A stretch of DNA of 64,000 bases from an uncultured Bacteroidales bacterium (GTDB taxonomy: Bacteria; Bacteroidota; Bacteroidia; Bacteroidales; Paludibacteraceae), in NCBI GenBank assembly GCA_902800215.1, contig CADCDS010000019.1, positions 1 through 64,000 of the forward strand. The letters are read 5' to 3'. The notes below the pieces were generated by a model. The model was not told the origin of the DNA. It made no database searches and saw only the letters and a program-made list of their open reading frames with translations. The translations under genes were made by a program, and so were the position numbers. Of this stretch, positions 450 through 62,467 are shown one piece after another; within the stretch, counting starts at the first letter, position 1, and the number at the start of each line of letters is the position of its first letter.

Positions 450-489
450 TGGTATCCCGGAATAGCGGTATAGCGGTATCACGACGGGG
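450..489. repeat. 8-bp-period degenerate array (CGGTATCC family)
   Basis: Successive octamers read TGGTATCC, CGGAATAG, CGGTATAG, CGGTATCA, CGACGGGG. The same octamer family recurs at 21909-21945 and, on the other strand, at 53523-53562. The array lies between two minus-strand accessory genes. Confidence 0.75.
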
Positions 490-516
490 TACCAAGTAAA
501 AAGGACTAAGCTAAAG

Positions 517-1092
517 TTAGTCATCGCGTTCGACAAAGATGTCAAAATCACGGGCGGGCTCGGAGGCAGCAGCGGCGAGGGGGTCGGTGAGGGTTAGGAT
601 GAGGCCTTGTGCGAGGGCGGCATCGAAGCGGCGATGGGCGGCTTGGGAGAGCCAGATGAGGTTGGAGGGACGGTTGTCGGTGGTGATGCCGTTGAGATGG
701 TGACAATCGAACGCATGCAGATGCCGATATGGGATCTTGGGCGTAGGCGGCAACCATTCAACGGGTCGGGGTCCGATGAAAGCGAGAGCAACGGCATGAT
801 GAATGAGGATGTAGCCGTAGGTGCGGGTCATCTTGAGGTACTTCTGTTTGCGGTTGCCATTGTACTTGTTGGTTTTGGAGGTGTCGAAGATGGGTTTGAG
901 TGGGTGGTACTCAAAACGGTAGTCACCGGTTGTTTTGTCTTTGACATAGACATGTGAGAAGGGTCGTCCGTCGGCGGTGATGTAGAGCGGTTTGTTGTTG
1001 GTTCGCTCGACAGGAAGGACGAGTCGCACTTCTGTTCCGTCGGGGAGTGTATCCCTGAGCGGATGAAACTGGATGATATTTAATAAAGTCAT
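517..1092 (-). CDS. HNH endonuclease-like protein, 191 aa
   Basis: The region around residues 97-155 has the layout of an HNH homing-type nuclease: HHAVALAFIG, then CHHLNGITTDNRPSNLIWLS and a later AAHRRF histidine. The HH pair and the DN-x-x-SNL segment match the His-Asn core that binds metal and cuts DNA in this fold. Such genes usually travel in phages and integrative elements. A second, more diverged protein of the same plan lies at 52399-53001. There is a -7 box at 1136-1143 and a strong hairpin just before the start. The target is unknown. Confidence 0.65.
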   Translation of the reverse strand: MTLLNIIQFHPLRDTLPDGTEVRLVLPVERTNNKPLYITADGRPFSHVYVKDKTTGDYRFEYHPLKPIFDTSKTNKYNGNRKQKYLKMTRTYGYILIHHAVALAFIGPRPVEWLPPTPKIPYRHLHAFDCHHLNGITTDNRPSNLIWLSQAAHRRFDAALAQGLILTLTDPLAAAASEPARDFDIFVERDD

Positions 1093-1098
1093 AATGTA

Positions 1099-1143: not shown

Positions 1144-1195
1144 CGGCGAACTTTTCGACCGTTTTAGTCGTAGTGACAAGTTCGAAAAACGAGGG

Positions 1196-1592: not shown

Positions 1593-1634
1593 ACTATTTA
1601 CGATTTTGTCATTTACCATTTACTATTTGTCCCA
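1593..1634. repeat. heptamer array (ACTATTT family) over a stop codon
   Basis: Units ACTATTT, ACGATTT, (T)GTCATTT, ACCATTT, ACTATTT run at a 7-bp period with one 8-bp step. The array spans the last codons and the stop of the 902-aa gene. Confidence 0.7.
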
Positions 1635-4317
1635 TAGCGTTATAGATCTTGCCGTCACGGAGGATGAAGAGTTGACCATTACAGATGACCTTATTGATGA
1701 TTGGTGATTGGTCATTGGTAATTTGCTCTATGCCTGTCGGACTCTGCGGTGCGTTGGCATTACCGATACGCAGTTGGCGGCGACCGGGAACATAAGACGG
1801 TCCTTGCGGTTCGGAGCTTACTTCGCTCATATTCACATATGCGCGGTACTCACGGAGTTTGACATTGGTACCGGCTTTGGTGAAGAGGTTATTATAGGTG
1901 ACATACATACCCGGAGTAACATCGGTCATATCGGCATAAACGCCATAAGTACCATTACCATCGTTACCTGCTGCGGTGTACTCACCGGAGTAGTTGCAAA
2001 CGAGTTCTGTACCTTCGGGTACAATCTCAGCCGGTTCAGCAGCCGTGCCGCCTGCTTTGTAGAGCATGGTATAGAAGGTAGCACCAGTGTACGAATCAAT
2101 CTGATACGGGAAGCATAGCGTGTTGAGGTTCATGTGGGTGTGCGTACGAACGTACTGCTGAACCGTCGGTTTCTGGAGATAGGTAACACGGATCGAATGA
2201 CAATAGAAGTCACCCGGAGTCTGCTGTGCAAACGTAAGTTCCGATTCGCGTACTTCGCCGCACGACCATGTGGTTTCATTCTTTTGCTCAGATTCTTGCA
2301 AGGTGCTTACTTGTACATCACTGCTGTTGGTAATGAGCAGATCCAGGAAATTCGTACCTCCTTGCAGATTGCCTTTTCCATTCCAAACGAAAACCACCTC
2401 GCTGATGTACGAATCAGCAGGTACTTCCACTTTGAGGCTGGTGATGCCGTATTGCGATTGCATGCGGACACCACGATTCTCTGTTGCAGGGGAGATGGTA
2501 TTGTTATTGGCATTGGAGAAAGAAGCGGTTACTTCGCCTTCGGTGAAGGTCGGGTTCTTTGAAGCCTCAAAGTCCGTAAAGACGAGTCCTTTGACACCTT
2601 CGCCTTCAGCGTCTTCTACCAAAGCCGCTACATTCAGGTCTTTGATATCGAGATACTTGCCGTCAGTAGCACTCCACCAGAACAGTTTGATAGAAACGGT
2701 TCCTTTCAGACCTTGCAGCGCAGCCTCTTCCGAGAGATTAACAACGCGCTTCATATCGGAGGTTCCATAAGTATTCGGACCAACTACATCCAATGTCTTG
2801 ATGACCTCGCCGTTATTGTAAATCTTCACCTGATAATAGGCATCTGAAGCGTCGGAGAAGACATCCGAAGTGAGCATCTTAATCGATACCTGTTTGCCTA
2901 ATGCAATGGTCATGTCGAAGCCATAGTAGCAACGCTCATCCAAAGCATTCACGTATTCATCTGTAGCATAGATATAGTTGCGGTAGTTAGGAGTACCGTT
3001 GTCAGCATAGCACTCTTGTTTGCCTTCATTATACCAATAGAGTTTGCGACCTTTGTTGCTCAGCGCGTTCTGTAAACCGAAGTTTTGGGCAATCGTGATG
3101 CCCTCTGCCGAAGGATCGACCAATGCATCATCGGAAACGGCATAGCCGGAAACTTGCGAATCGGACGAAGTAGTCACTTCGGTATCCACCGTACGGGTCA
3201 GACCGAATGTCTGCGTACCGTCTGCGATATGGGAAACGAGTGCTTTCACCTGCAGGTCTTTGATAGCTACGTACTGTGCGCTTGCGGTATTCCAAAAGAA
3301 GAGTTTGACAGTGATGGTACCGGTCAGGTTTTGCAACGAAGCATCATTGGCGATACCGATACTGCGCTTCATATCCGAAGTAGTAGCAGTAGCCTCCACT
3401 TCATCAAAGGTACGAAGCAACGCACCGTTATTATAGATTTTCACTACATAGTGCGTGTTCTCGCGGTTTTTCAGCACGTCGGAAATAAGACGTTGGAGCG
3501 AGAGCTTGTATCCGTCCGCTACCGTCAAATCGAAACTGAAATAGATACCTTCGTTGAGTTCTTTGAAAACATCATCACCCAATTGATTGCGGTAGTTCTT
3601 GACGCCTTTATCTACATAGCAGTTTTTGCTTTCCGTGCCGTCGAACCAATAGATAGCACGACCTTTATCGGTCAGCACGTTTGCGCTTGGATAGTTCATC
3701 GTTACGCTGATACCTACTACCGACGGATCAACCAACACATCCTCTGCAACGGCATAGCCGGAAACTAACTCATCGGTCGAAGTCGAAGTGACGGAAGCCA
3801 CCTCGCGTGTTACGCCGAAGGTCACCGCCGCCGGATCATCCGGGAAGACGATCTCAAAACCGGCAAAGAAGAAATCGTTATTGTAAGAAGTCAGATAATA
3901 CACACCTGCTTCGTCTAAAGCTACCGTCCAAACGGGCGTAGAAGCGGGTTGTGCAGCAAAAGCATCTTCGGCAGTCGTTACATTGTCCGTCTTACTGACC
4001 AGAATTCCGCGTGCTGCATCAGAATAGGTGTAGAAAGTGACGGTACAAGGACCGCTTACCTTGAATGCCAAACGGTCCTGTGCATTCTTCAGACGAAGCG
4101 AGTTGAGGTGCGTTTCACCGGCAAAGGTACTGTTTCCTTTGTTGGTAGCCACCGTGTTCGCGGTAGGAGCAAAGATATGTCCGTCCGCATAAAGCGTGTT
4201 AGCGACAGGTTTCTCTGTTCCATTGTTGGTCATGTCATCGGCAATGAATACGTAGTCGTAATCAATGCTGCATACTGCCATCAGGAGCAGTAATGCAAAT
4301 GTCTTTAAGTTTCTCAT
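1609..4317 (-). CDS. secreted repeat protein with C-terminal sorting tail, 902 aa
   Basis: The N-terminus (MRNLKTFALLLLMAVC) is a signal peptide, so the protein is exported. Two tandem domains of about 200 residues (roughly 165-362 and 368-570) share segments such as TFGxTR, NYRN, VKIYNNG, TSDMKR and KDLxVxALV. A related copy occurs in the neighbouring esterase at 4337-8932, so this is a shared, probably carbohydrate-binding or adhesive beta-sandwich module. The C-terminus (NGQLFILRDGKIYNAMGQIV) is the tail found on other large surface proteins here and probably directs type IX-like export and anchoring. The gene lies 19 bases after the esterase, in the same operon. Two heptamer arrays interrupt its 3' end. 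The function of the modules is inferred only. Confidence 0.75.
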   Translation of the reverse strand: MRNLKTFALLLLMAVCSIDYDYVFIADDMTNNGTEKPVANTLYADGHIFAPTANTVATNKGNSTFAGETHLNSLRLKNAQDRLAFKVSGPCTVTFYTYSDAARGILVSKTDNVTTAEDAFAAQPASTPVWTVALDEAGVYYLTSYNNDFFFAGFEIVFPDDPAAVTFGVTREVASVTSTSTDELVSGYAVAEDVLVDPSVVGISVTMNYPSANVLTDKGRAIYWFDGTESKNCYVDKGVKNYRNQLGDDVFKELNEGIYFSFDLTVADGYKLSLQRLISDVLKNRENTHYVVKIYNNGALLRTFDEVEATATTSDMKRSIGIANDASLQNLTGTITVKLFFWNTASAQYVAIKDLQVKALVSHIADGTQTFGLTRTVDTEVTTSSDSQVSGYAVSDDALVDPSAEGITIAQNFGLQNALSNKGRKLYWYNEGKQECYADNGTPNYRNYIYATDEYVNALDERCYYGFDMTIALGKQVSIKMLTSDVFSDASDAYYQVKIYNNGEVIKTLDVVGPNTYGTSDMKRVVNLSEEAALQGLKGTVSIKLFWWSATDGKYLDIKDLNVAALVEDAEGEGVKGLVFTDFEASKNPTFTEGEVTASFSNANNNTISPATENRGVRMQSQYGITSLKVEVPADSYISEVVFVWNGKGNLQGGTNFLDLLITNSSDVQVSTLQESEQKNETTWSCGEVRESELTFAQQTPGDFYCHSIRVTYLQKPTVQQYVRTHTHMNLNTLCFPYQIDSYTGATFYTMLYKAGGTAAEPAEIVPEGTELVCNYSGEYTAAGNDGNGTYGVYADMTDVTPGMYVTYNNLFTKAGTNVKLREYRAYVNMSEVSSEPQGPSYVPGRRQLRIGNANAPQSPTGIEQITNDQSPIINKVICNGQLFILRDGKIYNAMGQIVNGK
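1699..1719. repeat. heptamer array (GATTGGT family), intragenic
   Basis: Three exact-period units GATTGGT, GATTGGT, CATTGGT lie inside the 902-aa gene and encode part of ITNDQSPII, just before the C-terminal tail. Confidence 0.7.
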
Positions 4318-4336: not shown

Positions 4337-7300
4337 TTATTGAATTTGAATTCCTTGTGCGTTATAGATCTTGCCATCTTTTACTATCAGTAACTGTCCG
4401 TTACGGATAAATTTATGATTTATGATTTCAGATTTCAAATTTACATTCTCCACTCCTGTCTCCGTATCTTCAATCGTAGCCGGAGCACCGAAGCCGCCGC
4501 GTGTGTTGGCTTTGCGGAGGGTCTTGCCGATGTAGGAAGCAAGGTTCAGTTCACTACCTTTGAGTAGGGCGACGAAAGTACCTTCGTCCTCAATGAGGTA
4601 AGCCGCATCGTCATCGATAACTTTCGGATTAGCGACAGCCTGCGCTGCGATAGCGCGTGCATCCCAGTTGTCGGTTCCTTTGACCACGTTATCATAGGTG
4701 TAATTACCGATAGCTTCGAGATAGATAGCATCGGAGTTAGCGGCATAGTTGAGTCCGTTCAGGTTATGACCTGTAACCGGCGTACCATCTTCCAGATGCG
4801 TGTTATACTCATGGAAGCGGACGGGGAGGTCAGCGCTCATATAGGTGTAACCTTGTGCCGACGGAGCGATGAGACAGGTAGCATTGAGGAAGGTAGCGGC
4901 AGGGCTGTTATGCCAACCGCGTGCGAAGTTCCATTTGCCTGCTTGGTTGTCATCGCCGTCTATCGTACAGTTATTGAGCACGTATCCGTAAACGGTCTCA
5001 GCAGCCGTCGAAGGCGCGAGGATAACATCTGCATGCGCTCGTGCATTATTGTATAACAAGGTATTCTCAAACCACATATCGCCGCCACCGCAAATATAAT
5101 CCACCGTACCTTCGATACGTCCGTCTTCGAAATAACCGCGTGCGGTAGCCGGGCAAGAAGAATAATACGTATCCTGGTTACCTTGCAGATCTACTTGTTT
5201 CATGATGCTCTTGTCTCCGCGCACCTGTACGGCGATACCTACTCCACTGGCAGAACTGCCTTCATAGGACACATCGCAGCGGATAGCGAGGTCTTGCAGA
5301 TAGACATTATCGGCACCGATATAGAACGTCTCGGCATTATTCATACCGGCTGCCAGCGGATGGTTCTGAATGAGTACACCTTCCATCGACTGACCGATCA
5401 GGCTGACCGTCTGGTCGATATGGGTGAGAGTTGCCGTACCGAGGTCATATATACCATTCGGAAGGAAGATCTTATCGTAAGGCTGTGCCGTCTCCAAGGC
5501 CAACACCAAACCGGCAGCATCACCTGCTCCGATGACGTAGTAACCGGCTTCATTGAGGGTCGGTACCTGCTCCAGGTTATACACCTTGACAGCGTGTACG
5601 TAACCACCGTTAGAGAGAGTGAAAGTGAGCGTAGTGGCAGGACCGGTATAGCGGAACACACCTTTATTCCCGTCTGCAGCTACCGGCAAAGTGATCGGTT
5701 CTCCGACAGGATTGCTATTCGCGTCCACGCAAGCGAGTGTGCTGGCATTGCCGTATTTGCAGAGCGCCAAACTAATGAGGGCGTTTCCGGCTACCTCAAT
5801 CGTAATCGTGCCATTGGCGCTGAACTGCCATCCGTGCTGTGTTCCATTATACGTACCGCCGGTGATGGAGATGAGTTCATGATCCTCCGGATAGAAAGAG
5901 CGTTGGGTCAGGTCGTAGTTGAAGACCTTACCTACTTCTGCTACCTCGATATCCGTTGCATGGGCATAGAGTTTGAGGCTCTCGATAACGGTCGTTCCTT
6001 CTGCCACTTTGAGGGCATTAGGCTCCGCCGAAGCGAACCAACCGCGGAAAGCCTTACCTGCCGGTACGGTTACGTCCGAAACGCTATAAGCATATACCAA
6101 AGCCGAACCGCCGTCCACGGTCTCGCTACCTAAGAGCGTTGTACCGTCCGTATCATAATAACTAACCATTGCTTGTGCAATGTAGTCACATGCTTCAGCG
6201 AAGAAATACGGGACAAAAGTCTGATTGCCGAACTCGAAAGTCAATGTAGCGGCTTCTTCCACATTATAAGTCCATGTAACGAACTGGTTGTAATTCGGTT
6301 TCTGCTCGCCACAGGGACCGACATTGCTAAACGTAGCAAAATTCACACCGTTCTTTTTCACGGTGATATCGGTCTTGCTAAACTGACATGCGCCGATAGT
6401 GAACTTCACCGGTCCGTCCACCGGTACGGTGACAGTACCGCCGTAGATACCATGCTGGACTCCGTTATAGTTGGTGCCCGCAATCGTTACACCTTCCGGC
6501 AACTGATTGTTATCGGGAAGGAAAACGGTATAGGGGTCGTCACGGAACTCCACTTTGAAATCCGTGAAGGTGCGTGCAACTTGCTCCTCTACGGTACCTT
6601 TGATATTAAAATCTTTGATAGCTAACAGTGTCGAACCGCTATTGATCCAATAGATGAACTTCACCGTGATCTCACCCTTGAGGTTCTTGACGGTCTCGCT
6701 TTCCAGCGCCAAAGTGGCTTTATGGTCTGTTCCGCTCTGACCGGCGCCGATCGTTTGGGTAGCCGACTTGAAGAGCGGTAAACCGTTAGCGCCTTCGATG
6801 ATAAACTCATAGAACCAGTTGGATTTGTTATCCAGATAAAGGTCTGTATTAATCTCGCTTGCATTGAAGACATAACCGTCAGCAATCGTCATCTTGAATG
6901 CAATATACGCATCGCTGGATTCGGCATCCGCTTGCGTCTTGATGGTCACATTATTCGCCAAGTTACGATACGTCACCGGTGCCGTGTAAGCGGTTGCATC
7001 GCCGTGATAAACATTACGGTTCGTCAGAACGGCATAGGTGGCCTGTACATTGGTAGAGGTCACTTTATCGCTTGTCGAAGGCAGCGGAGACAGGGCGGTA
7101 AGAGTATGATCGGTCATATCTACGTCAGCCGTCAAACCAAAAGCATGCTCGTTGGTCTCTTCGCCCGGTTCATCTCCCGGTTCTGCAGCAAAAGCCTGAC
7201 CGGAGATAACGACGTTACGAAGGCATATATATTTGCTATCCTTCTCCTCTCCGTAGTCATGCCAAGGCAGCACGTGCACGTGAAGGGTCTGACCTGCTTT

Positions 7301-8932
7301 GACGGTAAGGGTCGGCGTAAGGTTAACATGTTCGATGGCACGGTTAGGCAAGTTACGTTTCTCATAGATGGTCATCACGTTTGTGAAGGCATCGCCGAAA
7401 CCGGTATTAATATGATAGCACATCGTGGATGTAGCGTCTGCGGTGACATCCATGGATATGCCGGTGATACGTACGTCCATCGCCTCGGGAGCGGTGATGG
7501 CAAAATCGATATAACGGCTGGCATTCTCATCTATCTCACCGGCAGGCCACGGGGTACGGCTGCTGCCGTTAGCGGAGTTATGGAAACGTGCGAGGACGAT
7601 ACCTGTCTCATCGCCGTCTGTGAAATAATTCTTGCTATAATCCATACAAGCCATGTTACTCATTGCGAACGCGGCACTGATCGGACCTTCTACGACAGCA
7701 GCAGGTACCGGACGGGCATTGATAGCCCATGTAGCACTAACCTCTGCACCGCCGTCCAACGAGATAGCCGTTGCGCTGACAGGGATAGCAATCACATGTT
7801 CGCCGGAGGTCGCATAGACTGTGTCGAGTTGTTCTCCACCGGTGCTGTAGTTAGCACGCACATACACCTTCTGGAACATCGAACCGCCGCTGTAGGTAGC
7901 ATTGGCCGTGGACGCATAGTTGACTTTATCAAGCGAAATCTGCAAGTTCGCTGTAGCGGTTAGAGCGACCGTACCGTTAGCCGGTTCCAGACCATAACCG
8001 GTGAGCAGGAACTCCTTGTTCTGCGCTACCCCGCAATAGGTCTCGCCTATCTCGATAGCGTTGGGGTTGGCCGTGATGTCGGTCGGAATCGTGATATGCT
8101 CCGCTAAGACGCCTGCGTTCTTGAGCAGTTGCGCCGCAGCACGTGCCACGAGGTTACCTCCCATGGCGTTGGTATGGGTTTTGTCGCCTTCGCAGAAGAG
8201 CAGACTCAAACACTGCGTCTCGCCGTACGACAGGTACAGTTGGCGCGTTGCTTCGGTGAGGTCGATGAACGGTACATTCTTCGCTTTACCTACCTCACGC
8301 ATCGCATGCACATAACTCATCGTCGAGTCGCCTGCAGGTAGACTCTGGTTCTCATAAAGGACACCGTTCTCGATCTTGGAGAATTTATCGCCGAGGTCAT
8401 GCTGACCGTTACGACGGATGTCATTACCGCTGAAATACGCACGGCAGATAGGACCTACCAAGATCGGTGTCACACCCAACGCACGTGCCTCATCGATGAA
8501 ATGACCTAACATCTCGCGATAGGTAGTCTGCGGATTCGTACCGCGGGCGTCTGTCGGAGCAGGGAGACCGTTGGCTGCACAATAAGCAGCGTACTCCAAG
8601 TTGTCCATACCGTAGGTCACGGTTCCCTCGTCGTTGTGGGCAAACTGGATAATGAGGTAATCACCGGCACTCATCTGGCTCTTGACCGAAGGCCAATAAG
8701 CGGCTTGCGTGTAGAAACTGCGGGTGTCGGCACCTGATTTGCCACGGTTGTTTACGGTTACAAACGCCGGATCGAAGAACGAACCAAGGTACATACCCCA
8801 GCCGCGTTTATCCGTCGTACTCTCATCATACTCCGCCATCGTCGAATCGCCGATGGTGTGTACTTTGATGACTCCCTGCATCTGCGGCAGGCAGAGCATC
8901 ATAGCTACGAAAAGCGAAAAGATTTTTTTCAT
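4337..8932 (-). CDS. bifunctional pectin esterase: CE12 acetylesterase plus CE8 methylesterase, 1531 aa
   Basis: After a signal peptide (MKKIFSLFVAMMLCLPQMQG), residues 21 to about 270 form an SGNH hydrolase of the rhamnogalacturonan acetylesterase type. It has IGDST with the nucleophile Ser near 30, QFAHND, and a GDKTH motif near 250 supplying Asp and His. Middle domains include a module like those in the 902-aa neighbour. Residues 1130 to about 1440 form a pectin methylesterase beta-helix with QDTYYS near 1254, GTVDYICGG near 1276 and FARGW near 1337, matching the family motifs for the two Asp and the Arg/Trp. The enzyme would strip acetyl and methyl groups from pectin outside the cell. The C-terminal tail (NGQLLIVKDGKIYNAQG) suggests surface sorting. 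The divergent AraC regulator is the likely controller. Confidence 0.88.
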   Translation of the reverse strand: MKKIFSLFVAMMLCLPQMQGVIKVHTIGDSTMAEYDESTTDKRGWGMYLGSFFDPAFVTVNNRGKSGADTRSFYTQAAYWPSVKSQMSAGDYLIIQFAHNDEGTVTYGMDNLEYAAYCAANGLPAPTDARGTNPQTTYREMLGHFIDEARALGVTPILVGPICRAYFSGNDIRRNGQHDLGDKFSKIENGVLYENQSLPAGDSTMSYVHAMREVGKAKNVPFIDLTEATRQLYLSYGETQCLSLLFCEGDKTHTNAMGGNLVARAAAQLLKNAGVLAEHITIPTDITANPNAIEIGETYCGVAQNKEFLLTGYGLEPANGTVALTATANLQISLDKVNYASTANATYSGGSMFQKVYVRANYSTGGEQLDTVYATSGEHVIAIPVSATAISLDGGAEVSATWAINARPVPAAVVEGPISAAFAMSNMACMDYSKNYFTDGDETGIVLARFHNSANGSSRTPWPAGEIDENASRYIDFAITAPEAMDVRITGISMDVTADATSTMCYHINTGFGDAFTNVMTIYEKRNLPNRAIEHVNLTPTLTVKAGQTLHVHVLPWHDYGEEKDSKYICLRNVVISGQAFAAEPGDEPGEETNEHAFGLTADVDMTDHTLTALSPLPSTSDKVTSTNVQATYAVLTNRNVYHGDATAYTAPVTYRNLANNVTIKTQADAESSDAYIAFKMTIADGYVFNASEINTDLYLDNKSNWFYEFIIEGANGLPLFKSATQTIGAGQSGTDHKATLALESETVKNLKGEITVKFIYWINSGSTLLAIKDFNIKGTVEEQVARTFTDFKVEFRDDPYTVFLPDNNQLPEGVTIAGTNYNGVQHGIYGGTVTVPVDGPVKFTIGACQFSKTDITVKKNGVNFATFSNVGPCGEQKPNYNQFVTWTYNVEEAATLTFEFGNQTFVPYFFAEACDYIAQAMVSYYDTDGTTLLGSETVDGGSALVYAYSVSDVTVPAGKAFRGWFASAEPNALKVAEGTTVIESLKLYAHATDIEVAEVGKVFNYDLTQRSFYPEDHELISITGGTYNGTQHGWQFSANGTITIEVAGNALISLALCKYGNASTLACVDANSNPVGEPITLPVAADGNKGVFRYTGPATTLTFTLSNGGYVHAVKVYNLEQVPTLNEAGYYVIGAGDAAGLVLALETAQPYDKIFLPNGIYDLGTATLTHIDQTVSLIGQSMEGVLIQNHPLAAGMNNAETFYIGADNVYLQDLAIRCDVSYEGSSASGVGIAVQVRGDKSIMKQVDLQGNQDTYYSSCPATARGYFEDGRIEGTVDYICGGGDMWFENTLLYNNARAHADVILAPSTAAETVYGYVLNNCTIDGDDNQAGKWNFARGWHNSPAATFLNATCLIAPSAQGYTYMSADLPVRFHEYNTHLEDGTPVTGHNLNGLNYAANSDAIYLEAIGNYTYDNVVKGTDNWDARAIAAQAVANPKVIDDDAAYLIEDEGTFVALLKGSELNLASYIGKTLRKANTRGGFGAPATIEDTETGVENVNLKSEIINHKFIRNGQLLIVKDGKIYNAQGIQIQ
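4411..4445. repeat. heptamer array (ATTTATG family), intragenic
   Basis: Five exact-period units read ATTTATG, ATTTATG, ATTTCAG, ATTTCAA, ATTTACA. They encode the stretch just before the C-terminal tail of the esterase, the same relative place as the array at 1699 in the 902-aa gene. Confidence 0.8.
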
Positions 8933-12933: not shown

Positions 12934-13043
12934 TATGATAAGCACGAAAGAAACACAAACCAGCAGCACATACCGACAGCGTGCACACCCGCATTGAGAC
13001 CGAGCGGGCGGGGCGGCGCGGCGGATATACCCGAAATAAAGGT

Positions 13044-21908: not shown

Positions 21909-21945
21909 CGGTATCCCGGAATCACGGTATACCGGTATCCCGAAG
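21909..21945. repeat. 8-bp-period array (CGGTATCC family) between rplJ and rplL
   Basis: Octamers CGGTATCC, CGGAATCA, CGGTATAC, CGGTATCC and the start of a fifth run without a break. They belong to the same family as 450-489. The array fills the gap just after the rplJ stop codon. Confidence 0.8.
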
Positions 21946-24298: not shown

Positions 24299-24335
24299 CG
24301 ATTTACGATTTAACGATTTACGATTTTTCGATTTA
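24299..24335. repeat. heptamer array (CGATTTA family) between secE and nusG
   Basis: CGATTTA occurs four times, with a fifth CGATTTT, at spacings of 7 or 8 bases. It covers the whole secE-nusG gap and touches the secE stop. Confidence 0.75.
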
Positions 24336-26152: not shown

Positions 26153-26169
26153 TTTTGTCAAAGAACTTT

Positions 26170-26225
26170 AGCTTTTGGCTATTGGCTTTTAGCTAAGAGC
26201 TAACGGCTAACAGCTAACAGCTTTA
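26170..26225. repeat. heptamer array (GCTAACA family) between tRNA genes
   Basis: GCT recurs eight times at exactly 7-bp spacing (26171 to 26220), in units such as GCTTTTG, GCTAACG and GCTAACA. The array fills most of the tRNA-Tyr to tRNA-Thr spacer, so it is transcribed and removed during tRNA processing. Confidence 0.85.
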
Positions 26226-26304: not shown

Positions 26305-26335
26305 GTACTTTTTACCTTTTGGTCGAAAGCGGGTG

Positions 26336-26491: not shown

Positions 26492-27295
26492 TCACGCTAA
26501 GAACCGTTTCCGAAGGGTAAGGATATCTTCGTGGGAGAGGCAGAGGACAGTATGCAGATAATTGATCATCCCGCCGAACTGGTTGTCAATGAGATCCAGC
26601 GTGGAGATGAAATTCGGTGTGGAAACGCCCATGAAGGCCTGGATGACGGACAGTTCGGGTGCACCTCCTCCTCGAGCGATGACGTCTGCATTGAGTTTCT
26701 CGACGATGGGTCGATACGCGATGTTACTCTCATCAAAATCAGCGATGATGGTGTCTCTATCCACGCCTAAGGCGAACATGAGGAAGGCCGCACCCCAGCC
26801 GGTTCGGTCTTTTCCCTGTGCGCAATGCCACAAGATTCCGCCGTCTTCGGGTGCTTCTACCACCAGACGCAGGAAAGCGGCATACTGGAGTTGGCTGAAC
26901 TCACTGAGGATGAGCGACGGGTACATGTTTCGCGCCATGACCTGCACTTCGGGATAGAAGGAGTAGTTGACGATATGCTTATCCAGTTCATGAAACGCCT
27001 CATCGGGGATGGGTTTGCCGGTCTGTTGCTCGGCACGCATGTCGATGGTAGGCAGCAGATGATGCTGCACACCTTCCATCTCCCGATCAGGGGTGACCTG
27101 AAACTCACCGAGCGAACGGAAGTCAAAGATGCGGCAGAGGTTATATTCCGCTTTGAGTCGCGCCACGTCATTATCCGACGCATCATGCAGATGTGCCGTA
27201 CGCAGCAGTCGATGGGGACGGATGGGTCTTCCGCCGGCACCGAGGATGCCGCCTAAGTCACGGGCGTTGTCGATATGGTCAAATGTAACGGTCAT
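26492..27295 (-). CDS. IphP-type protein tyrosine/serine phosphatase, 267 aa
   Basis: The start at 27293-27295 (MTVTFDHIDNARDLGG) opens the usual NxRDLGG segment of this family. The catalytic loop reads HCAQGKDRTG, with Cys nucleophile and Arg. An early RTAHLHDAS segment and DFRS are also typical. No signal peptide is visible, so it acts in the cytosol. A longer upstream frame covers a heptamer array and the end of the HD gene and is rejected. As the last gene of the nine-gene envelope/alarmone operon, it could dephosphorylate a protein or small molecule there. The substrate is unknown. Confidence 0.82.
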   Translation of the reverse strand: MTVTFDHIDNARDLGGILGAGGRPIRPHRLLRTAHLHDASDNDVARLKAEYNLCRIFDFRSLGEFQVTPDREMEGVQHHLLPTIDMRAEQQTGKPIPDEAFHELDKHIVNYSFYPEVQVMARNMYPSLILSEFSQLQYAAFLRLVVEAPEDGGILWHCAQGKDRTGWGAAFLMFALGVDRDTIIADFDESNIAYRPIVEKLNADVIARGGGAPELSVIQAFMGVSTPNFISTLDLIDNQFGGMINYLHTVLCLSHEDILTLRKRFLA

Positions 27296-27300
27296 TGGGA

Positions 27301-27335
27301 TAATGGCGAATGGCGAATGGCTAATGGCGAATGGG
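27301..27335. repeat. heptamer array (GAATGGC family)
   Basis: Five exact-period units, TAATGGC, GAATGGC, GAATGGC, TAATGGC, GAATGGG, span the end of the HD gene and the ribosome-binding region of the phosphatase gene. Confidence 0.85.
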
Positions 27336-29814: not shown

Positions 29815-29816
29815 AG

Positions 29817-37962: not shown

Positions 37963-40900
37963 ATGAGAAAATTCATCGTTATCGCATCCATCGTAGGCTG
38001 CGCAGTCATGGCGCAAGCGAACACCGGTGCTCCCTGGATCGTGGAGCGGAATAACATCGTGGAGAGAACCGAAGCAGGTTGTCCCTCTTTCCCGAGTGTG
38101 CTGTATAGTTCCCTCGTCTATAACGTCGGCTGTATCCCTTGGGATCTGGAATTCAACAGCAGCACCATGTCCGGTGACACGAACGGTGCCTATTTCCAGT
38201 GGTATCGGTACAAAGAGAGCGAAGGTGCTTCGACGGCACAACCCTGCTCCTGGCAAACCGATCACTCCACCTTCGAAGGATTCAAACCCGCCACGGACGA
38301 GAATAACTCCCGCTACATCTACTACTGCCTGGTAACGACCCCCAACTGCCCGTCCGGCACCAAGTCCGGTAAGTTCACCGTTGTCGTCGGGCAAGACGGA
38401 GACCCCTGTCCCACCTTTGCCGGCACCACGTTCACGATCACTTCCGGCGGTTCCTACACCTCCGGTCAGACGGTGACGATCACCGCTACCACGACCGCTT
38501 ACGGTGGTGACCACATCTATACATGGTACCATAACGGAGTCGCGCTGGATACCACCGACACCCGTTACACTTTCGTTTGGGGCTTTAACCAACCCCAACT
38601 TATCATCGCCAATATCCGACCGGAAGATGGCGGTATGTATTCCATCCAGATGCAGGACGGTACGGAGTGCTATATGTACACCGATCCCGTTCGTATCCTG
38701 GTGGATAGCCCGTCCTGCGGTCCCGTGCCTACCCTCGGTGTGCAGAAAAAGGCTATTTGTGAAGGAGAGAGCACCCAGACCGGTGTGTCTAACAACACAC
38801 TCGCTGCAGGCGAAGTGGGACAGATCGTCTATATGGTCAAACCCGACGGTTCCAATCCTTCCACCACCGTCGGTACCTGGACCACCGACATGCCCGGACT
38901 CTATCAGTTCAAATATGTCGTTGAGAACCCCAACAACCCGTCTTGCTACCGCGAATCGAAAGTAGCTACTATCCGCGTCTATGAGAACGGCGGTACCGTT
39001 ACCATTACCCCGAGTGTCGCGGTGGAGAAGACCACGAACAAGGTGACCTTCACCTGCTCTCCGGCTCCCGGCACCGATGAGACCGCTACTGTCACCTTCT
39101 CCAGCAACGGCGGACAGACCGGTTCCGTTTATCCGAACACCTATCCGAATTTCGCACATACCTGCTATACCTCCGGCACTTATACCTACACCTACACCAT
39201 TACCAACACCAAAGCAGGTTGCAGCCGCACTGCTACCTGCGAAGTGATGTGGTACTCTTGCGGTTGGGTTACCGCACGGTTCAACAACTGGGTGGCGGAC
39301 AAGATCAAAGTGGGAGGTAGCATTAACTTAGGACCGGCAGTGCCGACCGAGACGGGTATGATAGGAATACTCACCGTCAGCAAGGACGGCGGTACACCGG
39401 AAGTGATCCCGACCTCTTCGCCCTATACACCGACCGATCCGGGTACATATGTGTTCCACTATGAAGTAAAACACTCCGATCCGCGCGTCACGGATTGTTA
39501 TAGCGAGGTCAGCAAAACCATCGTTGTGGAACCTTGCGGTACAAAAGCTCAACTGTCCACCAACAAGACCGTGCTCAAACTCGGTGAATCTGCCTCTCTC
39601 ACGTTCAACCGTCCCGCCTCCGGCGAAACAGCCAAGATGGAAGTCAGCAAAGACGGTGGTGCCAAATCTACAATCTCCAATATCCAATCTCCAATGACAT
39701 ATACGCCAACGGCAGTTGGCGAGTATGTGATCACCTACACCATCACTCCCTCCGGTTGTCAAGCGACCTCGCAGTCCGTGACGATCAAGGTCTATGACTG
39801 CGGTCCGGATGCAACTATCTCTGCCGACCGGACCAGTATTCAACCCGGTGGAACGGTGAACCTCACCGTCTCTACCCCCGGTGCCGATGAGACCGCTACC
39901 CTCACCGTCAGCAAAGACGGTGGTCCTCAATCTCCAATCTCCAATATCCAATCTCCCATAGCCTATACGCCTTCCGACGAAGGCACCTACGTCTTCACCT
40001 ACACGATCTCGCACGCGTATATAGATTGTTCACGCAGCGCACAGGTGACCATACGCGCATATAGCTGCGGTACACCCGCCGGCCTGACTACGGATAAGAA
40101 TGTACTCAAACTGGGTGAATCGGCTTCGCTCACCCTCAACCGTCAACCGGTGGCTGCCGATGGAGAAACAGCTTCCCTCACCGTCAGCAAAGACGGCGGT
40201 GCAGCACAACCGCTAACAGCTAACAGCCAACAGCCAATAGCCTATACGCCAAACGAAGTTGGCGTTTATACCGTCACTTACAGCATCGATAACGTTACAC
40301 TCGGTTGTGCTACTTCGGCGCAGGTCACCATCCATGTCTATGACTGCGGTCCCGAGGCAACGATCACGACAGATAAGGATGTGTTGAAATTAGGAGAATC
40401 GGCTTCGCTGACCCTCTCTGCCCTTGGTGCCGACGAGACCGCCACGCTCACCGTCAGCAAAGACGGTGGTGCCCAATCTCCAATCTCCAATATCCAATCT
40501 CCAATGACATATACGCCGAACGAAGTTGGCGAATATGTCCTCACCTACACCGTCTCACATCCGTATATCGACTGTACGCGTTCCGCTTCGGTGACGATTA
40601 AGGTGTATGACTGCGGTGTACCGGCAGCGATCACATCGGATAAGGCGACACTCAAACCGGGTGAATCGGCATCCCTGACGCTCTCTACCGTCGGTGCCGA
40701 TGAAACCGCCACCTTAACCGTCAGCAAAGACGGTGGTGCCCCATCACCCATAACCCATAACCCATCACCCATGACATACACACCGACGGAAGTCGGTGAA
40801 TATGTCCTCACCTACACCGTCTCGCATACGAAGATCACCTGTGAGACCTCGGCTTCGGTGACGATCAAGGTATATGACTGCGGTCCGGATATCGAGATGA

Positions 40901-42684
40901 CGCTCCCTGTCTCGGAGATCAAGATCATGCGTACCACGACGATCACCCTCTCTGCCCCCGGTGCCGACGAGACCGCTACGCTCACCGTCAGCATCAATGG
41001 TGGTGCCCAATCTCCAATATCCAATCTCCAATCTCCAATGACATACACACCGACGGAGTTAGGCGTTCACACCTTCACCTACACCATCACCCATCCGTAT
41101 ATCAACTGTACCCGAACGGTGACAGCGACGCTCAATGTGATAGAAGCCGAACTGGTGTTTGACGACAAGAACGGCACGCATGTATGGTCTGATCCGCAGA
41201 ACTGGTGGCCGGCCTATAACCGTCTCCCGAATGCTGCCGACAGTGCCATCATCCGTAAGAACTGTAACGTCGATATCGACAATGCCGTGACGTATGACCT
41301 CACCTTCGACGGCGGTAACATCAACATCCAGCCGCAAGATGCCCTCATCGTCCTGCATCAGGTACTGCCAATATCCAATGTCCAATCTCCAATATCCAAT
41401 AACTTCACCATCGCTTCCGACGCTTCCGGCAACGGTGCCCTCATCCTGGGGCCGGACAACACCGACCTCCCGGCCACCGTGCTCTTCTATGCGCGTTCGA
41501 CCGACATGAACGAGCTCTATCCCGTTTGGCAGTACATGGGTTCGCCGGTGCAGGAAGCGCTGAACATCGATGCCGCTTATCCGGGTGCTGTCTTCTACGA
41601 ATGGACCAACACACCGAACCACAAGACCGGTGGCAACTGGCAGCGCGTTGATTCGCTTACCGGTGAACTGTCGCCGTTCAAAGGCTACTGCATGACGCAA
41701 CTCAAAGACAAACAATATACATTGCAGGGCACGCTCAATAACCCGGTTCTGCGGGAAGTAGCGATCCCGTTCAATGACCAAGGCATCTACTCCGGTTTCG
41801 CGTTTGTGGCTAACTCCTGGGTAGCACCGATCAGCATTGCCGCCATGAGTACCGAGGATTTCGGGGGTGCCGATGCGACGGTTTATATCATGAACAGCGG
41901 CACGTACGAGGAAGCCATTCAGCAGCAACGCAACGCTTCCTATGACGGAACAGCCGCAGCCCGTGGTCAGTACAACGCGATCCCTGTACACGCCGCTTCC
42001 TATCTGCCGAATGCACTCACCGTCATCCCGCCGATGCAGGGATTCTTCGTGCACACCTCCCGTGCCACGACGCTCAGTCTCGATTACAATAAGACGGTCT
42101 ATACCCCCGCCCTCACACGCGTCAACACCACCCCGACCCGTGCCCCGCAGGCCCATAACCCGTCACCCGTAACCCATAACCCATCCGTCTTACGCTTCCG
42201 CGTAGAAGGCTTCGGTTCGGAAGATGAAGTCTATCTCCTCACCTCGGAGGCTTTCACCACCCGTTTCGATAACGGATGGGAAGCCATCAAGGCACGTTCG
42301 GAGAACAGCGATATCTCGATGGCGGTAACCTCAGCCGATGGCGACCTGGCCGTAGCGGCTATTCCTGAACTGGAAGGTACGGAGATCACCTTCGATGGTG
42401 GCAACCACAAGACATATACAATAACGGTAACCGGTAACCCGTCACCCGTAACCGAGGACCTTTATCTCCTGGATACAGAATCCGGTATATACACGGAGCT
42501 CCGTGAGGGCATGACGTACAGCTTCAAATGCGGTGCGGCTACCCGTCGTTTCGTCATCACCAAACAAGGTGACTTTGAGAATGACCAATCACCAATTACC
42601 AATTACAAATACATCGAAAACGGTCTCCTTTACATCCGTGCCGGCGAACGCCTCTACAACGGAACCGGAGAGTTGTTGAAATAG
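37963..42684 (+). CDS. giant Ig-repeat surface protein, 1573 aa
   Basis: A signal peptide (MRKFIVIASIVGCAVMAQAN) and an N-terminal region like the 740-aa protein are followed by seven tandem domains of about 90 residues (roughly 430-1060). Each opens with a CG-x-x-A type start and has SxTLSxxGADETATLTVSKD and ends in TYTxSHxxIxCxRS. The C-terminal 500 residues match the 740-aa protein (GTHVWSDPQNWWPAYNR). The tail is IENGLLYIRAGERLYNGTGE. In each Ig repeat a heptamer array encodes the loop after KDGGAQ. It probably forms an extended surface stalk. Confidence 0.8.
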   Translation: MRKFIVIASIVGCAVMAQANTGAPWIVERNNIVERTEAGCPSFPSVLYSSLVYNVGCIPWDLEFNSSTMSGDTNGAYFQWYRYKESEGASTAQPCSWQTDHSTFEGFKPATDENNSRYIYYCLVTTPNCPSGTKSGKFTVVVGQDGDPCPTFAGTTFTITSGGSYTSGQTVTITATTTAYGGDHIYTWYHNGVALDTTDTRYTFVWGFNQPQLIIANIRPEDGGMYSIQMQDGTECYMYTDPVRILVDSPSCGPVPTLGVQKKAICEGESTQTGVSNNTLAAGEVGQIVYMVKPDGSNPSTTVGTWTTDMPGLYQFKYVVENPNNPSCYRESKVATIRVYENGGTVTITPSVAVEKTTNKVTFTCSPAPGTDETATVTFSSNGGQTGSVYPNTYPNFAHTCYTSGTYTYTYTITNTKAGCSRTATCEVMWYSCGWVTARFNNWVADKIKVGGSINLGPAVPTETGMIGILTVSKDGGTPEVIPTSSPYTPTDPGTYVFHYEVKHSDPRVTDCYSEVSKTIVVEPCGTKAQLSTNKTVLKLGESASLTFNRPASGETAKMEVSKDGGAKSTISNIQSPMTYTPTAVGEYVITYTITPSGCQATSQSVTIKVYDCGPDATISADRTSIQPGGTVNLTVSTPGADETATLTVSKDGGPQSPISNIQSPIAYTPSDEGTYVFTYTISHAYIDCSRSAQVTIRAYSCGTPAGLTTDKNVLKLGESASLTLNRQPVAADGETASLTVSKDGGAAQPLTANSQQPIAYTPNEVGVYTVTYSIDNVTLGCATSAQVTIHVYDCGPEATITTDKDVLKLGESASLTLSALGADETATLTVSKDGGAQSPISNIQSPMTYTPNEVGEYVLTYTVSHPYIDCTRSASVTIKVYDCGVPAAITSDKATLKPGESASLTLSTVGADETATLTVSKDGGAPSPITHNPSPMTYTPTEVGEYVLTYTVSHTKITCETSASVTIKVYDCGPDIEMTLPVSEIKIMRTTTITLSAPGADETATLTVSINGGAQSPISNLQSPMTYTPTELGVHTFTYTITHPYINCTRTVTATLNVIEAELVFDDKNGTHVWSDPQNWWPAYNRLPNAADSAIIRKNCNVDIDNAVTYDLTFDGGNINIQPQDALIVLHQVLPISNVQSPISNNFTIASDASGNGALILGPDNTDLPATVLFYARSTDMNELYPVWQYMGSPVQEALNIDAAYPGAVFYEWTNTPNHKTGGNWQRVDSLTGELSPFKGYCMTQLKDKQYTLQGTLNNPVLREVAIPFNDQGIYSGFAFVANSWVAPISIAAMSTEDFGGADATVYIMNSGTYEEAIQQQRNASYDGTAAARGQYNAIPVHAASYLPNALTVIPPMQGFFVHTSRATTLSLDYNKTVYTPALTRVNTTPTRAPQAHNPSPVTHNPSVLRFRVEGFGSEDEVYLLTSEAFTTRFDNGWEAIKARSENSDISMAVTSADGDLAVAAIPELEGTEITFDGGNHKTYTITVTGNPSPVTEDLYLLDTESGIYTELREGMTYSFKCGAATRRFVITKQGDFENDQSPITNYKYIENGLLYIRAGERLYNGTGELLK
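39665..39699. repeat. heptamer array (CAATCTC family), Ig repeat 2
   Basis: AATCTAC, AATCTCC, AATATCC, AATCTCC, AATGACA run at 7-bp period and encode STISNIQSPMT. Confidence 0.85.
39928..39955. repeat. heptamer array (CAATCTC family), Ig repeat 3
   Basis: CAATCTC, CAATCTC, CAATATC, CAATCTC run at 7-bp period and encode QSPISNIQSP. Confidence 0.85.
40212..40239. repeat. heptamer array (GCTAACA family), Ig repeat 4
   Basis: GCTAACA, GCTAACA, GCCAACA, GCCAATA run at 7-bp period. It sits at the loop that carries CAATCTC units in the neighbouring repeats, yet belongs to a different family; it encodes LTANSQQPIA. Confidence 0.85.
40474..40508. repeat. heptamer array (CAATCTC family), Ig repeat 5
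   Basis: CAATCTC, CAATCTC, CAATATC, CAATCTC, CAATGAC run at 7-bp period and encode QSPISNIQSPMT. Confidence 0.85.
40741..40775. repeat. heptamer array (CCATAAC family), Ig repeat 6
   Basis: CCATCAC, CCATAAC, CCATAAC, CCATCAC, CCATGAC run at 7-bp period. A third family sits at the same loop; it encodes SPITHNPSPMT. Confidence 0.85.
41008..41042. repeat. heptamer array (CAATCTC family), Ig repeat 7
   Basis: CAATCTC, CAATATC, CAATCTC, CAATCTC, CAATGAC run at 7-bp period and encode [12 protein letters not shown]. Unit order differs from repeat 5. Confidence 0.85.
41369..41403. repeat. heptamer array (CAATATC family), intragenic
   Basis: CAATATC, CAATGTC, CAATCTC, CAATATC, CAATAAC run at 7-bp period. 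The 740-aa paralogue has no array at this point (GHLYGCKAGD instead). Confidence 0.8.
42152..42186. repeat. heptamer array (CCCATAA family), intragenic
   Basis: CCCATAA, CCCGTCA, CCCGTAA, CCCATAA, CCCATCC run at 7-bp period, after TPTRAPQA. It is the positional counterpart of the GCCAACA array at 37434. Confidence 0.85.
42425..42452. repeat. heptamer array (CCGTAAC family), intragenic
   Basis: CGGTAAC, CGGTAAC, CCGTCAC, CCGTAAC run at 7-bp period. It is the positional counterpart of the AGCCAAC array at 37706. Confidence 0.8.
42583..42610. repeat. heptamer array (GACCAAT family), intragenic
   Basis: GACCAAT, CACCAAT, TACCAAT, TACAAAT run at 7-bp period and encode NDQSPITNYK directly before the C-terminal tail. 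Confidence 0.8.
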
Positions 42685-52233: not shown

Positions 52234-52307
52234 CGCGGAAAATCTGCGGACTCTGCGGAGCATTTGCGGAGAATCTGCGGAAATTCTGCGGAATATGCGG
52301 AGAATCT
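52234..52307. repeat. tandem TGCGGA repeats (11- and 9-bp spacing)
   Basis: TGCGGA starts at 52245, 52254, 52265, 52276, 52287 and 52296, with a CGCGGA at 52234 and a partial unit at 52307. Steps are 9 or 11 bases. It lies between the stop of the 127-aa gene and its terminator. Confidence 0.7.
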
Positions 52308-52334
52308 GCACCCCTCTTCCGGGGTGCTTTTTTT
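52308..52334 (+). terminator. terminator after the 127-aa gene
   Basis: GCACCCC pairs with GGGGTGC around TCTTCC, followed by seven T residues. Confidence 0.85.
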
Positions 52335-55934: not shown

Positions 55935-55968
55935 GTAAACGACGCGCCTATCAAAAGAAAGCGTCCAT

Positions 55969-56008
55969 TAACAATTTAACAGTTTAACAATTTAACGTTT
56001 TAACACTT
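55969..56008. repeat. 8-bp-period array (TAACAATT family)
   Basis: TAACAATT, TAACAGTT, TAACAATT, TAACGTTT, TAACACTT run at a strict 8-bp period, directly upstream of the gene at 56016. Confidence 0.8.
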
Positions 56009-57309: not shown

Positions 57310-57318
57310 TTAACTGAA

Positions 57319-60402: not shown

Positions 60403-60416
60403 TTTGAACGTAGCTT

Positions 60417-62378
60417 ATGAAACGACTTTTTCTTGCGCTGTGCGCCATCATGATGGCCTCGGCAATCTTCGCCTCTTCGGTGAACTACACCGCTGATGAC
60501 AACACGATCTTCTCTAACCCGGAACGGGGATTCATCACCATGATCGGTGGTACCTTATCGGAGAAGAAACCGTATGGAGTCAAAGGCCATGAGAGTACGC
60601 TGGACAACAAGATCTCTTCGGAGAAGATGTCCATTGTGCTGGTGCATTACTACCTGAGCAATTACCGCACGACGGCCACGCTGCCGACGAAGATCCTCAA
60701 CGCTTTTGATGAGGATATGGCGGTGCTGCGCTCCAAAGGTATGAAGGCTATCATCCGCTTCTCGTACACCGAATCCACTTCAGGAGACGATGCGGCATGG
60801 AACATCGTCAAACAGCATATCCAGCAGTACAAGAGCCACTGGCAGGCGAATGCAGACGTTATCTTCTGCTTCCAGGCGGGTATCGTCGGTGCCTGGGGAG
60901 AATGGTATTACACCCAGAACTACGGCAATCAGTTGTCATCCATGAACAGCGCCCGGCGCTTGGTAGTGGACTCGCTCTTAGCTGCCGTACCGGCTGACCG
61001 CTGCATCCAGTTGCGTACACCGAAGTTCAAAACCGGTTATGTAGGCAACAGTCAGCCGCTCACCGAAACGGAAGCCTATAACGGTTCCGCCAAAGCCCGT
61101 CTGGGCCATCATAACGATGCTTTCCTCTATGACTACGACAACATGGGAACGTATTCCGATACCGCGAAAGAGAAACCCTATCTGGCGCAAGAGACGCTTT
61201 ATGTGCCGCTGGGAGGCGAGACGGATATCACCAAGGACAGCTTAGCGCGACAATGGGCCACCTATGACAAGACGATCGCTGAGATGAGTCGTCTGCACTG
61301 GACCTTCATCCAGAGCGGTTATGCGGAGACGACCACGAATATGTGGCGCAACAACGGAACGTTCGATGAACTCAACCGCCGCATGGGTTATCGTTTCCAA
61401 CTGGTGAGCGGTACCTATTCCGACCAGGTAGCTGCAGGTGGCAAGCTGTCCGTGAACATGCAGATCCGTAATGCCGGTTTTGCACCGCTGTACAACGAGC
61501 GTCCGGCGTATATCGTGCTCAAGAACGGTAGCAAGACCTATCAACTGAAACTCAACGCCGATCCCCGTCGATGGAAACCCAACGGCGTGATCACCACCGT
61601 CAATGAGCAACTGACCGTGCCGTCCAATGTACCGGCAGGCAGTTACCAACTCTACCTGTATCTCCCCGATGCGTATGCATCTATCGCGTCCAACCCCAAG
61701 TACGCCGTACGCTTTGCGAACAGCAACGTATGGGAGTCTTCTACGGGAATGAACAAACTCAACGCGTCTGTCACCGTCACCGGCGGCGGTGCACCGGTCG
61801 ATCCGCCGACACCGGGTGACGCTATCCTCCTGCCGGCAACGCTGGATAAGGCCAACGTCACCGCTTACAGCGACGACATGACCTGGTATAACACCGATTA
61901 CTTCGATTTCGGTCCGTCGGATGCTGCTAACCTTGACCGCTGGGCGGAATGGAACGTCGAACTGCGTTACCCGGGTGAGTACTTCGTGAGCGAAGTGATA
62001 GCTTCCGTTTATAATGACGGCAACATCGTCGGTCACTCATGGCTGATCCAGCTGCTGGATAACGATTCGCCTGTCAGCAGTTACACCACCGTCGGCAAAT
62101 GGGCGGAAGGCGAGATCGCTTATGAAGACAAATGGGATCTGTCCTCCGTAGCTGCAGGCACCTATACGCTGCGCGTACAGAACAACATGCAATGGGCACA
62201 ACCCAAACTGCAGAGCCTAACCCTTCAGTACGACGGTGTTATCCCTTCCGATAACCAGGATATAACGATCACCAATCTTCCATATCCAATATCCAATATG
62301 TATGATATCCTCGGTCGTCCGGTGGATGAGTCCTACCACGGTATCGTGATTATCAACGGTATGAAATACCTGAGATGA
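60417..62378 (+). CDS. DUF4874/DUF4832 secreted protein, 653 aa
   Basis: After a signal peptide ([20 protein letters not shown]), [11 protein letters not shown] marks DUF4874, and [20 protein letters not shown] marks DUF4832. The TIM-barrel-like N-terminal part includes [14 protein letters not shown]. These domains resemble a glycoside-hydrolase barrel, but no activity is established. A C-terminal beta-domain (about 470-620) and a short tail ([20 protein letters not shown]) complete it. A heptamer array encodes LPYPISN just before that tail. Confidence 0.8.
62272..62299. repeat. heptamer array (CCAATAT family), intragenic
   Basis: CCAATCT, TCCATAT, CCAATAT, CCAATAT run at 7-bp period, just before the C-terminal tail of the DUF4832 protein. 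Confidence 0.75.
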
Positions 62379-62467
62379 TTGGAGATTGGAGATTGGAAAT
62401 TGGAAATTGGAAATTGGAGATTGGAGATTGGAAATTGGAGATTGGAGATTGGAGATTGGAGATTGAA
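62377..62467. repeat. longest heptamer array (GATTGGA family), 13 units
   Basis: Thirteen units of GATTGGA or AATTGGA (the last GATTGAA) at a strict 7-bp period start at the stop codon of the DUF4832 gene and end at a terminator. It is the complement of the CCAATCT family found inside the surface proteins. Confidence 0.9.

Follow-up and report, generated by a model that had tools for sequence, protein, structure and literature searches.

Tandem repeats with a seven-base unit are prevalent in bacterial genomes, and the reason for this prevalence is a long-standing open question. An excess of heptamers, together with slippage at a step set by the polymerase footprint, was put forward by Mrazek et al. 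2007, as cited in the accessible portions of PMC4679880 and PMC4692102. According to the accessible portion of PMC4692102, GGGAATC repeats in Xanthomonas and GGGGA(T/C)T repeats in Nostoc are of this kind, with 186 and 183 heterogeneous heptamer sets, mostly of four units, in two Xanthomonas genomes; extensive length and sequence variation was recorded there between two close species at equivalent gene gaps, along with inverted arrangements. TAACTGA repeats in Beggiatoaceae, Cyanobacteria and five Bacteroidetes are dispersed direct repeats of patchy distribution, for which the accessible text of PMC4679880 gives no known spreading mechanism. In Chloroflexus aurantiacus one heptamer, (GATAGRA)n, underlies 22 satellites of a genome; in the accessible part of that report, local appearance is considered likely for the heptamer-derived families and transposition for another group (PMC6749651). 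Here we analyse period-7 arrays in a 64,000-nucleotide stretch (the window) from an uncultured Bacteroidales bacterium of the Paludibacteraceae (GCA_902800215.1, contig CADCDS010000019.1, positions 1 to 64,000). Heptamer arrays as such are known; their turnover and burst behaviour are the new part. In this group of gut bacteria many short arrays hold four or five units, and comparison of related genomes suggests that arrays move by copying between sites and replace one another unusually fast.

Period-7 arrays in the window and in related genomes

The window belongs to a 1.96-Mb draft genome that is 85% complete (G000; G codes denote genomes and L codes sampled loci), and it was compared with samples of other genomes, likewise at draft stage. 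A strict period scan (score >= 12) returned 20 period-7 arrays in the window and 0–2 arrays at every other period from 4 to 13, while Tandem Repeats Finder at its lowest score gave 27 period-7 rows. No period-7 array reached score 12 in order-3 or order-5 Markov sequence (5 replicates each), and codon-shuffled genes joined by Markov gaps, a control named in the original prediction, averaged 0.02 arrays at that score over 50 replicates and never exceeded 1. The predicted abundance of period-7 arrays therefore stands, as do the heptamer units listed with it (TAGAGGT, near 13040, and CGATTTA, near 24299, only in the looser Tandem Repeats Finder list) and their predicted placement in gene gaps, across stop codons, between tRNA genes and within genes. 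The arrays share the traits of heptanucleotide long simple sequence repeats (LSSRs), namely tandem units of 5–11 nt with heptamers prevailing far above chance. The set of 8-bp arrays is small, with a single one at the strict threshold (TTAACAAT, 55968–56004, in a gene gap). CGGTATCC, predicted to form arrays at three loci, does so only at 21909–21942, its remaining sites being lone copies; a weak relative, CGGTATAG, lies at 458–479.

Period-7 density per 100 kb reached 31 in the window, 17.5 in a 200-kb stretch of the same genome, and 9.8 in 19 same-genus samples. Other families of the order, represented by 20 samples, had 1.1 (just 3 arrays over 273 kb); five larger congener samples ranged from 1.4 to 14.2. 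Around the RelA/SpoT-domain gene (Pfam assignment) that served as query for locus collection, 80 loci gave 13.6 arrays per 100 kb; they belong to drafts of uncultured Bacteroidales, whose names in many cases refer to the rumen or other ruminant gut compartments.

Individual genomes differ in the unit that prevails. The CCAATCT pattern CCAATCTCCAATMTCCAAT, allowing at most one mismatch, has 120 matches in the window's genome, and the reversed pattern has 4. Among 61 genomes it is present in 17 of the 37 from the same genus, G000 included, and in none of 24 from other families, the runner-up among 36 congeners being G027 with 21 matches. A further pattern, CCAATCTCCAATCTCCAAT, has 102 matches in the same genome and at most 11 in any other of 392 from the order, a set that includes just two congeners. 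The TAACCTC unit, which is the reversed control pattern, is frequent in the congeners G006, G014 and G025, and in genus g90 of family f87 (three members sampled) it was counted 49 times in G245, 35 times in G399 and not at all in G143; since it is abundant in other lineages, those lineages have their own units, and the G245 and G399 counts suggest a separate heptamer expansion in family f87. In G011 all 7 heptamer arrays share AACTATT, and 16 period-11 arrays prevail there. Units were more similar within than between genomes (reached by 0 of 2000 permutations, and by 10 of 2000 when G011 was left out), and more alike at distances up to 8 kb than beyond (3 of 300 permutations); these tests omit the window's Ig-repeat arrays, and the 8-kb test also omits 68 similar-flank pairs. 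Arrays of the window's genome were sampled over about 455 kb, 191 kb of it picked near CCAATCT matches.

Turnover at orthologous places

Aligned pairs of close loci hold unlike heptamer units at one and the same place with intact flanks, both at stop–start junctions and within genes, and the pair L062/L067 differs by a one-unit indel. The original prediction had considered that arrays might prove to be fixed, conserved protein motifs, and differences between close relatives at orthologous places speak against this. The GHNAP...LPLGIE loop of the SpoIIE domain illustrates the point: among 27 rows obtained from 81 scanned sequences (L061 was misread by the pattern), 8 are strongly period-7 (>= 0.50), with several unrelated units. 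An array-free ortholog was available for 35 of 93 coding arrays, and its loop was shorter in 25 cases, equal in 2 and longer in 8, a few of the subjects not being real reading frames; by these lengths, some of the array sequence seems to stand in for what was there and some to be extra.

A unit-specific difference between close genomes and a recurring 14-bp tag

L037 (genome G071) and L045 (genome G450) form a close pair, with 96.6% identity over 19.5 kb; aligned pieces totalling 56.6 kb give 95.1%. Allowing up to one mismatch, the AACGACT pattern AACGACTAACGACTAACGAC, derived from an array of L042, occurs 86 times in G450 and 8 times in G071, the reversed control having no match in either. 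In four further genomes it was found 0–9 times, with pairs of 9 vs 3 and 1 vs 0 (the latter pair giving 3 and 1 control matches). A TCAATTC pattern showed no comparable difference (73 vs 30, 39 vs 31, and 0 vs 0 in G450/G071).

Six aligned stretches of G450 and G071 provided 29 sites with good flanks, after 3 poor-flank sites were set aside and one broken alignment was dropped. Changes affected 8 of 9 sites of the AACGAC family and 8 of 20 sites of other families (Fisher p 0.02); 12 of the latter 20 were unchanged, four of these 12 being letter-identical. All eight changed AACGAC sites are longer in G450, by 3, 6, 21, 23, 27, 28, 34 and 36 bp, two of these differences (21 and 28) being exact unit multiples. 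At three sites the AACGAC family stands in G450 where G071 holds a heptamer array of AAATGGT, GGACAAA or AGAGTTT.

Arrays of this family also carry a non-repetitive 14-bp tag, AGCCCTYGCATGGA. In a seed-filtered scan of the sampled DNA, all 8 copies with at most one mismatch adjoin AACGAC units, as against 0 of 11 copies with two mismatches. With AACGAC flanks required, the tag was matched 21 times and the control never. The matches fall at 19 separate places, and four of the eight genomes searched account for all of them: G450 has 9 (three of them in one tandem), G071 has 3, G070 has 3, and G451, the genome of L095, whose query protein shares 71% identity with that of the window, has 6. Some of the G450 and G071 places among the 19 may be orthologous. 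At one orthologous site where both genomes hold a AACGACTA array, the G450 copy is 36 bp longer, tag included. Among 17 candidates none proved to be a tag inside an array of another unit, and in a scan for recurrent 15-mers the AACGAC tag was accompanied mainly by sequences lying outside arrays that look like promoters or form hairpins. Across 354 arrays, including stretches of the window's genome chosen for CCAATCT, imperfect 22-mers were common to 81 array pairs with unlike flanks, compared with a mean of 27.6 and a maximum of 51 in 200 unit-order shuffles.

Array anatomy

Array lengths peak at 30–33 bp in all four scorings, this being the top value in two of them; in the loosest and the strictest, pieces of 16–20 bp equal or exceed it in frequency. 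Within an array, most of the seven unit columns do not vary: 390 columns are variable where 518 would be expected, and none of 200 simulations fell below 501. Adjacent units differ by 0.127, below the minimum of 200 unit-order shuffles (0.139), and units three apart, at 0.152, are not unusually alike. Judged with a simple, purpose-written caller of open reading frames (ORFs), coding arrays number 23 of 35 on the window's own contig, of which 7% is non-coding, 18 of 20 in the window and 0 of 7 in G011. By inspection, GGG runs occur in a minority of units only, for example in CCCGTAA-like families, and the period-7 units have no REP-like palindromic core.

A copying model and its weighing

We consider it somewhat better than an even chance that the arrays are mostly function-less short tandem repeats, often about 30–33 bp long, that spread within a genome by templated copying. 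Genomes have their own dominant units, a tagged array recurs, units are exchanged at orthologous places while flanks stay intact, and lengths differ by whole units. Recurrence of the tag and the rise of one unit in one genome require copying between places, and the unit-multiple differences require slippage or unequal exchange. Under the copying model, a stalled or broken nascent strand would either take another array, in many cases no more than a few kb away, as template for a small number of units or slip on its own array, and would return to its own site through microhomology or shared units. Unit gain and loss could then edit the copied arrays, and selection would retain copies only in tolerant DNA, that is, in gaps, in loops and at in-frame lengths. 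Common units would be the more frequent donors, such that each species would drift to its own dominant unit. A dedicated enzyme is not required by the data and none was found. The original prediction had proposed slippage plus templated copying as a common mechanism: the multiples-of-7 length differences, the 14-bp tag and the 86 vs 8 unit difference agree with it, while the copying step and any enzyme are inferred, as is the direction of gain or loss in each single difference. For the AACGACT unit, low counts in other genomes favour gain in G450.

Several observations weigh against this account. The one AACGAC site of the nine that was scored as unchanged has an identity right at the cut-off (0.70), and its tag is present in G071 and missing in G450. 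The AACGAC regions were picked since G450 bears the array, a choice that favours grown copies, and an outgroup would be needed to separate, for each site, a gain in G450 from a loss in G071. In L079, 21-bp (three-unit) repeats consist of sequence native to the array-free ortholog, so that growth there looks local; the fit of units to the array-free ortholog is also slightly above that of permuted units (5.26 vs 5.01 of 7; 6 of 300). Within-genome similarity of units, tested on G000, G003 and G006 alone, was reached by 71 of 2000 permutations, a weak test. No donor–recipient event was observed directly, no enzyme was identified, and copying leaves the period of 7 (or 8, or 11) unexplained.

Alternative explanations

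If slippage alone were at work, strongly favouring 7-nt steps because of the polymerase footprint as Mrazek and co-workers proposed, every array would arise locally from its own seed and shared units would reflect base composition. In favour of this reading are the 21- and 28-bp whole-unit differences, the L062/L067 indel, the native seed in L079 with the weak seed excess, and the closer likeness of neighbouring than of three-apart units (0.127 vs 0.152). It does not, however, yield a 14-bp non-repetitive tag at 19 separate places, nor does it account for a wholesale difference of unit at a single site, or for one unit going up at many G450 places while four other arrays in those alignments are letter-identical; stepwise growth by 7 bp would, in addition, be expected to disrupt the frame of many coding arrays. 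As the whole explanation, slippage appears unlikely.

More doubtful is a dedicated array-writing system, in which heptamer blocks of several units would be installed at many sites by an enzyme with sequence specificity or by a writer that uses an RNA template. The 30–33 bp length peak, highest in two of four scorings, the 3–5 units of most period-11 arrays in G011 and the unit-specific rise (86 vs 8) would suit such a system, although at the strictest scoring 16–20 bp pieces equal those of 30–33 bp in frequency. Its specific form, to which we give equally little credence, would be a DNA-writing activity of rumen Bacteroidales that places heptamer (also 8- and 11-mer) blocks in trans on ordinary chromosomal DNA, telomerase-like or gene-conversion-like, with the unit set by the commonest arrays and lineage bursts as the result. 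None of the candidate enzymes follows the distribution of arrays. The reverse transcriptase family RVT_1, rejected as the writer, is absent from G000 (85% complete) and occurs in only 5 of 25 same-genus genomes searched, although diversity-generating or retron-type systems would need such a gene, and no Y1 transposase match was obtained in 21 of 37 same-genus genomes. Two further candidate causes were set aside. Mismatch-repair loss does not apply to the genus as far as MutS1 is concerned, since MutS1 lies above its curated cut-off in 57 of 61 genomes, those without being G018 (54% complete), G031, G050 and G053. Y-family polymerase is absent from the low-array G011 and G033, yet no match was obtained either in the genome to which L027 belongs, and L027 bears 3 arrays within 21 kb. 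The enzyme families examined as array drivers (RVT_1, MutS1, Y-family polymerase and Y1) thus gave no lead.

There is little to recommend the arrays as functional sites for protein binding, phase variation, termination or translation starts: some lie at stop or start codons and between tRNA genes, and 7-bp changes could shift frames, but close relatives hold completely different units at one site, no unit is fixed, and in this genome arrays are often coding (23 of 35 and 18 of 20). That the arrays are small derivatives or excision traces of a conventional mobile element (REP/REPIN, insertion sequence, or miniature inverted-repeat transposable element) is very improbable, for despite dispersed copies, a recurring tag and two partial Y1 transposase (PF01797) matches in G000 just above cut-off (E 4e-5), outer flanks are unshared except between orthologs (eight array patterns), the array-bearing G006, G011, G017 and G033 have no Y1 match, and the period-7 units are not palindromic. 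REPINs are palindromic elements moved by the RAYT transposase, and a convincing transposase of the REP/RAYT kind was not found with the Y1 profile PF01797.

Arrays of the window and their gene context

One group of arrays lies in two neighbouring genes on the plus strand. ORF 35736–37958 (+, Ig_3) has AGCCAAY at 37433–37460 and at 37703–37737. In ORF 37963–42684 (+), an Ig-like domain carries CCAATCT at 39665–39695, and the equivalent loops of the following domains carry CCAATCT (39928–39956), the different unit AGCYAAC (40208–40246), CCAATCT again (40473–40505), a third unit, CCCATAA (40740–40772), and once more CCAATCT (41007–41039); CCAATNT (41368–41401), CCCRTAA (42158–42184), CSGTAAC (42425–42453) and AATTACC (42580–42610) follow in the same ORF. 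One equivalent loop of this gene therefore holds CCAATCT, AGCCAAC or CCCATAA depending on the domain, and one displayed domain is array-free. At 40411–41057 the Ig-like domains are in 267-bp tandem, with a heptamer array in the equivalent loop.

On the minus strand, a gene row at 26492–32188 encodes a SpoIIE phosphatase with sensor and HATPase, a RelA/SpoT-domain protein, an APH-type kinase, an HD_4 protein and a tyrosine phosphatase. The SpoIIE-domain gene (30116–32188, -) contains CCACTTT (30315–30347), CCGTAAC (30618–30639) and CCATTCG (30820–30842), the last in the GHNAP...LPLGIE loop, which is hypervariable among relatives, several of them holding other units there. AATGGCG (27302–27338) spans the stop codon of the HD_4 gene (27321–27905, -) and lies also within the overlapping phosphatase ORF (26492–27505, -). 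Between the tRNA-Tyr and tRNA-Thr genes, a period-7 array of AGCYNNN on the minus strand occupies 26167–26222. ATTGGTG (CACCAAT) is found at 1693–1723 within ORF 1609–4317 (-), and ATTTATG turning into ATTTCAG at 4411–4442 within ORF 4337–8932 (-). An array of GATTGGA/AATTGGA with 12.7 units (62377–62465) begins at the stop codon of ORF 60417–62378 and ends at a terminator-like hairpin. For long arrays in general, unit counts may be off.

Other repeats

Repeats of other periods were also encountered. Period-11 arrays occur in L009, in L149–L157 (G011) and in L169–L174 (G033), mostly with 3–5 units and mostly in gene gaps; several of those in G011 have the 11-mer TTATTTGGTGA in common, and some lie within larger repeated blocks. 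A reading of periods 7 and 11 as protein coiled-coil repeats was dropped, 40 of 46 period-11 arrays in seven samples being in gaps. Period-8 arrays with a palindromic or near-palindromic, foldable unit were noted in L022 (12495, CCGGGATC), L031 (17902, CGTCATGA), L003 (3520, CTAGGATC) and L027 (15022, CTCGAGAT), and period-15 arrays with alternating 7- and 8-bp steps in L042 (6140) and L022 (15125). A small dispersed palindrome around AGCGAAGCGGTC is found in L045 (17921–17944), L188 (12855) and L191 (4333); in L045 it occupies the place of a heptamer array in the close relative L037. The window has a short array with a composite 11-, 20- and 31-bp unit, GCGGAGAATCT, at 52235–52309. Finally, GGGTGCAAAGGTAC recurs in gaps, at 26326 of the window and at 12 places of CGGGTGCAAAGGTAC in sampled DNA of the same genome; it appears to resemble the Bacteroidota promoter.

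Comparison with described repeats

Many related genomes, species-specific units, a pair at about 95% identity that differs by 86 vs 8 matches, and a natural tag make slippage and templated copying distinguishable here. If copying is true, short arrays would act as mobile DNA although they have no mobile element to carry them, rapidly rewriting protein loops. The original prediction knew of no described process that spreads heptamers in Bacteroidales; to this should be added that heptamer TAACTGA repeats are on record in five Bacteroidetes, as stated in the accessible text of PMC4679880. Within the accessible open-licence literature, preprints being outside the scope, no report was found of heptamer bursts in Bacteroidales, nor any of unit-specific bursts, tag-bearing arrays or unit exchange at orthologous sites.

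The described cases that come nearest are the TAACTGA repeats of Beggiatoaceae and the heptamers of Xanthomonas and Nostoc. The TAACTGA repeats resemble the present arrays as dispersed heptamer direct repeats with patchy distribution but, in the accessible portion of PMC4679880, they have one fixed unit, lie mostly near start codons in BOGUAY, and related heptamers are rarely repeated. That unit accounts for 1 of 8 listed arrays in G017 (as AACTGAT) and for none listed in the window's genome, and a position just upstream of start codons does not describe the window, where 18 of 20 arrays are coding. In Xanthomonas and Nostoc, the available text of PMC4692102 describes one G-rich, intergenic unit type with a G-quadruplex proposal, whereas the present arrays have a large variety of units, GGG runs being lacking from most of these as judged by inspection, and most arrays of the window's genome are coding. 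For Chloroflexus, an orthologous-site comparison was not found in the accessible part of PMC6749651. Borg tandem repeats are similarly fast-evolving, occur in gaps and genes and have a mechanism that is not known, yet as far as the accessible text of PMC9879509 extends they are mostly perfect and in genes have unit lengths divisible by three; here the unit is 7 within genes too. REPIN/RAYT elements, the subject of PMC3116915, are likewise short dispersed repeats that spread within a genome, a likeness limited here by the lack of a visible palindrome and by a doubtful transposase. LSSRs share with the arrays over-represented tandem 7-nt units (PMC4679880 and PMC4692102, accessible portions),; the present arrays differ in being degenerate, species-specific, unlike at orthologs, tag-bearing and burst-like, features for which slippage alone is insufficient.

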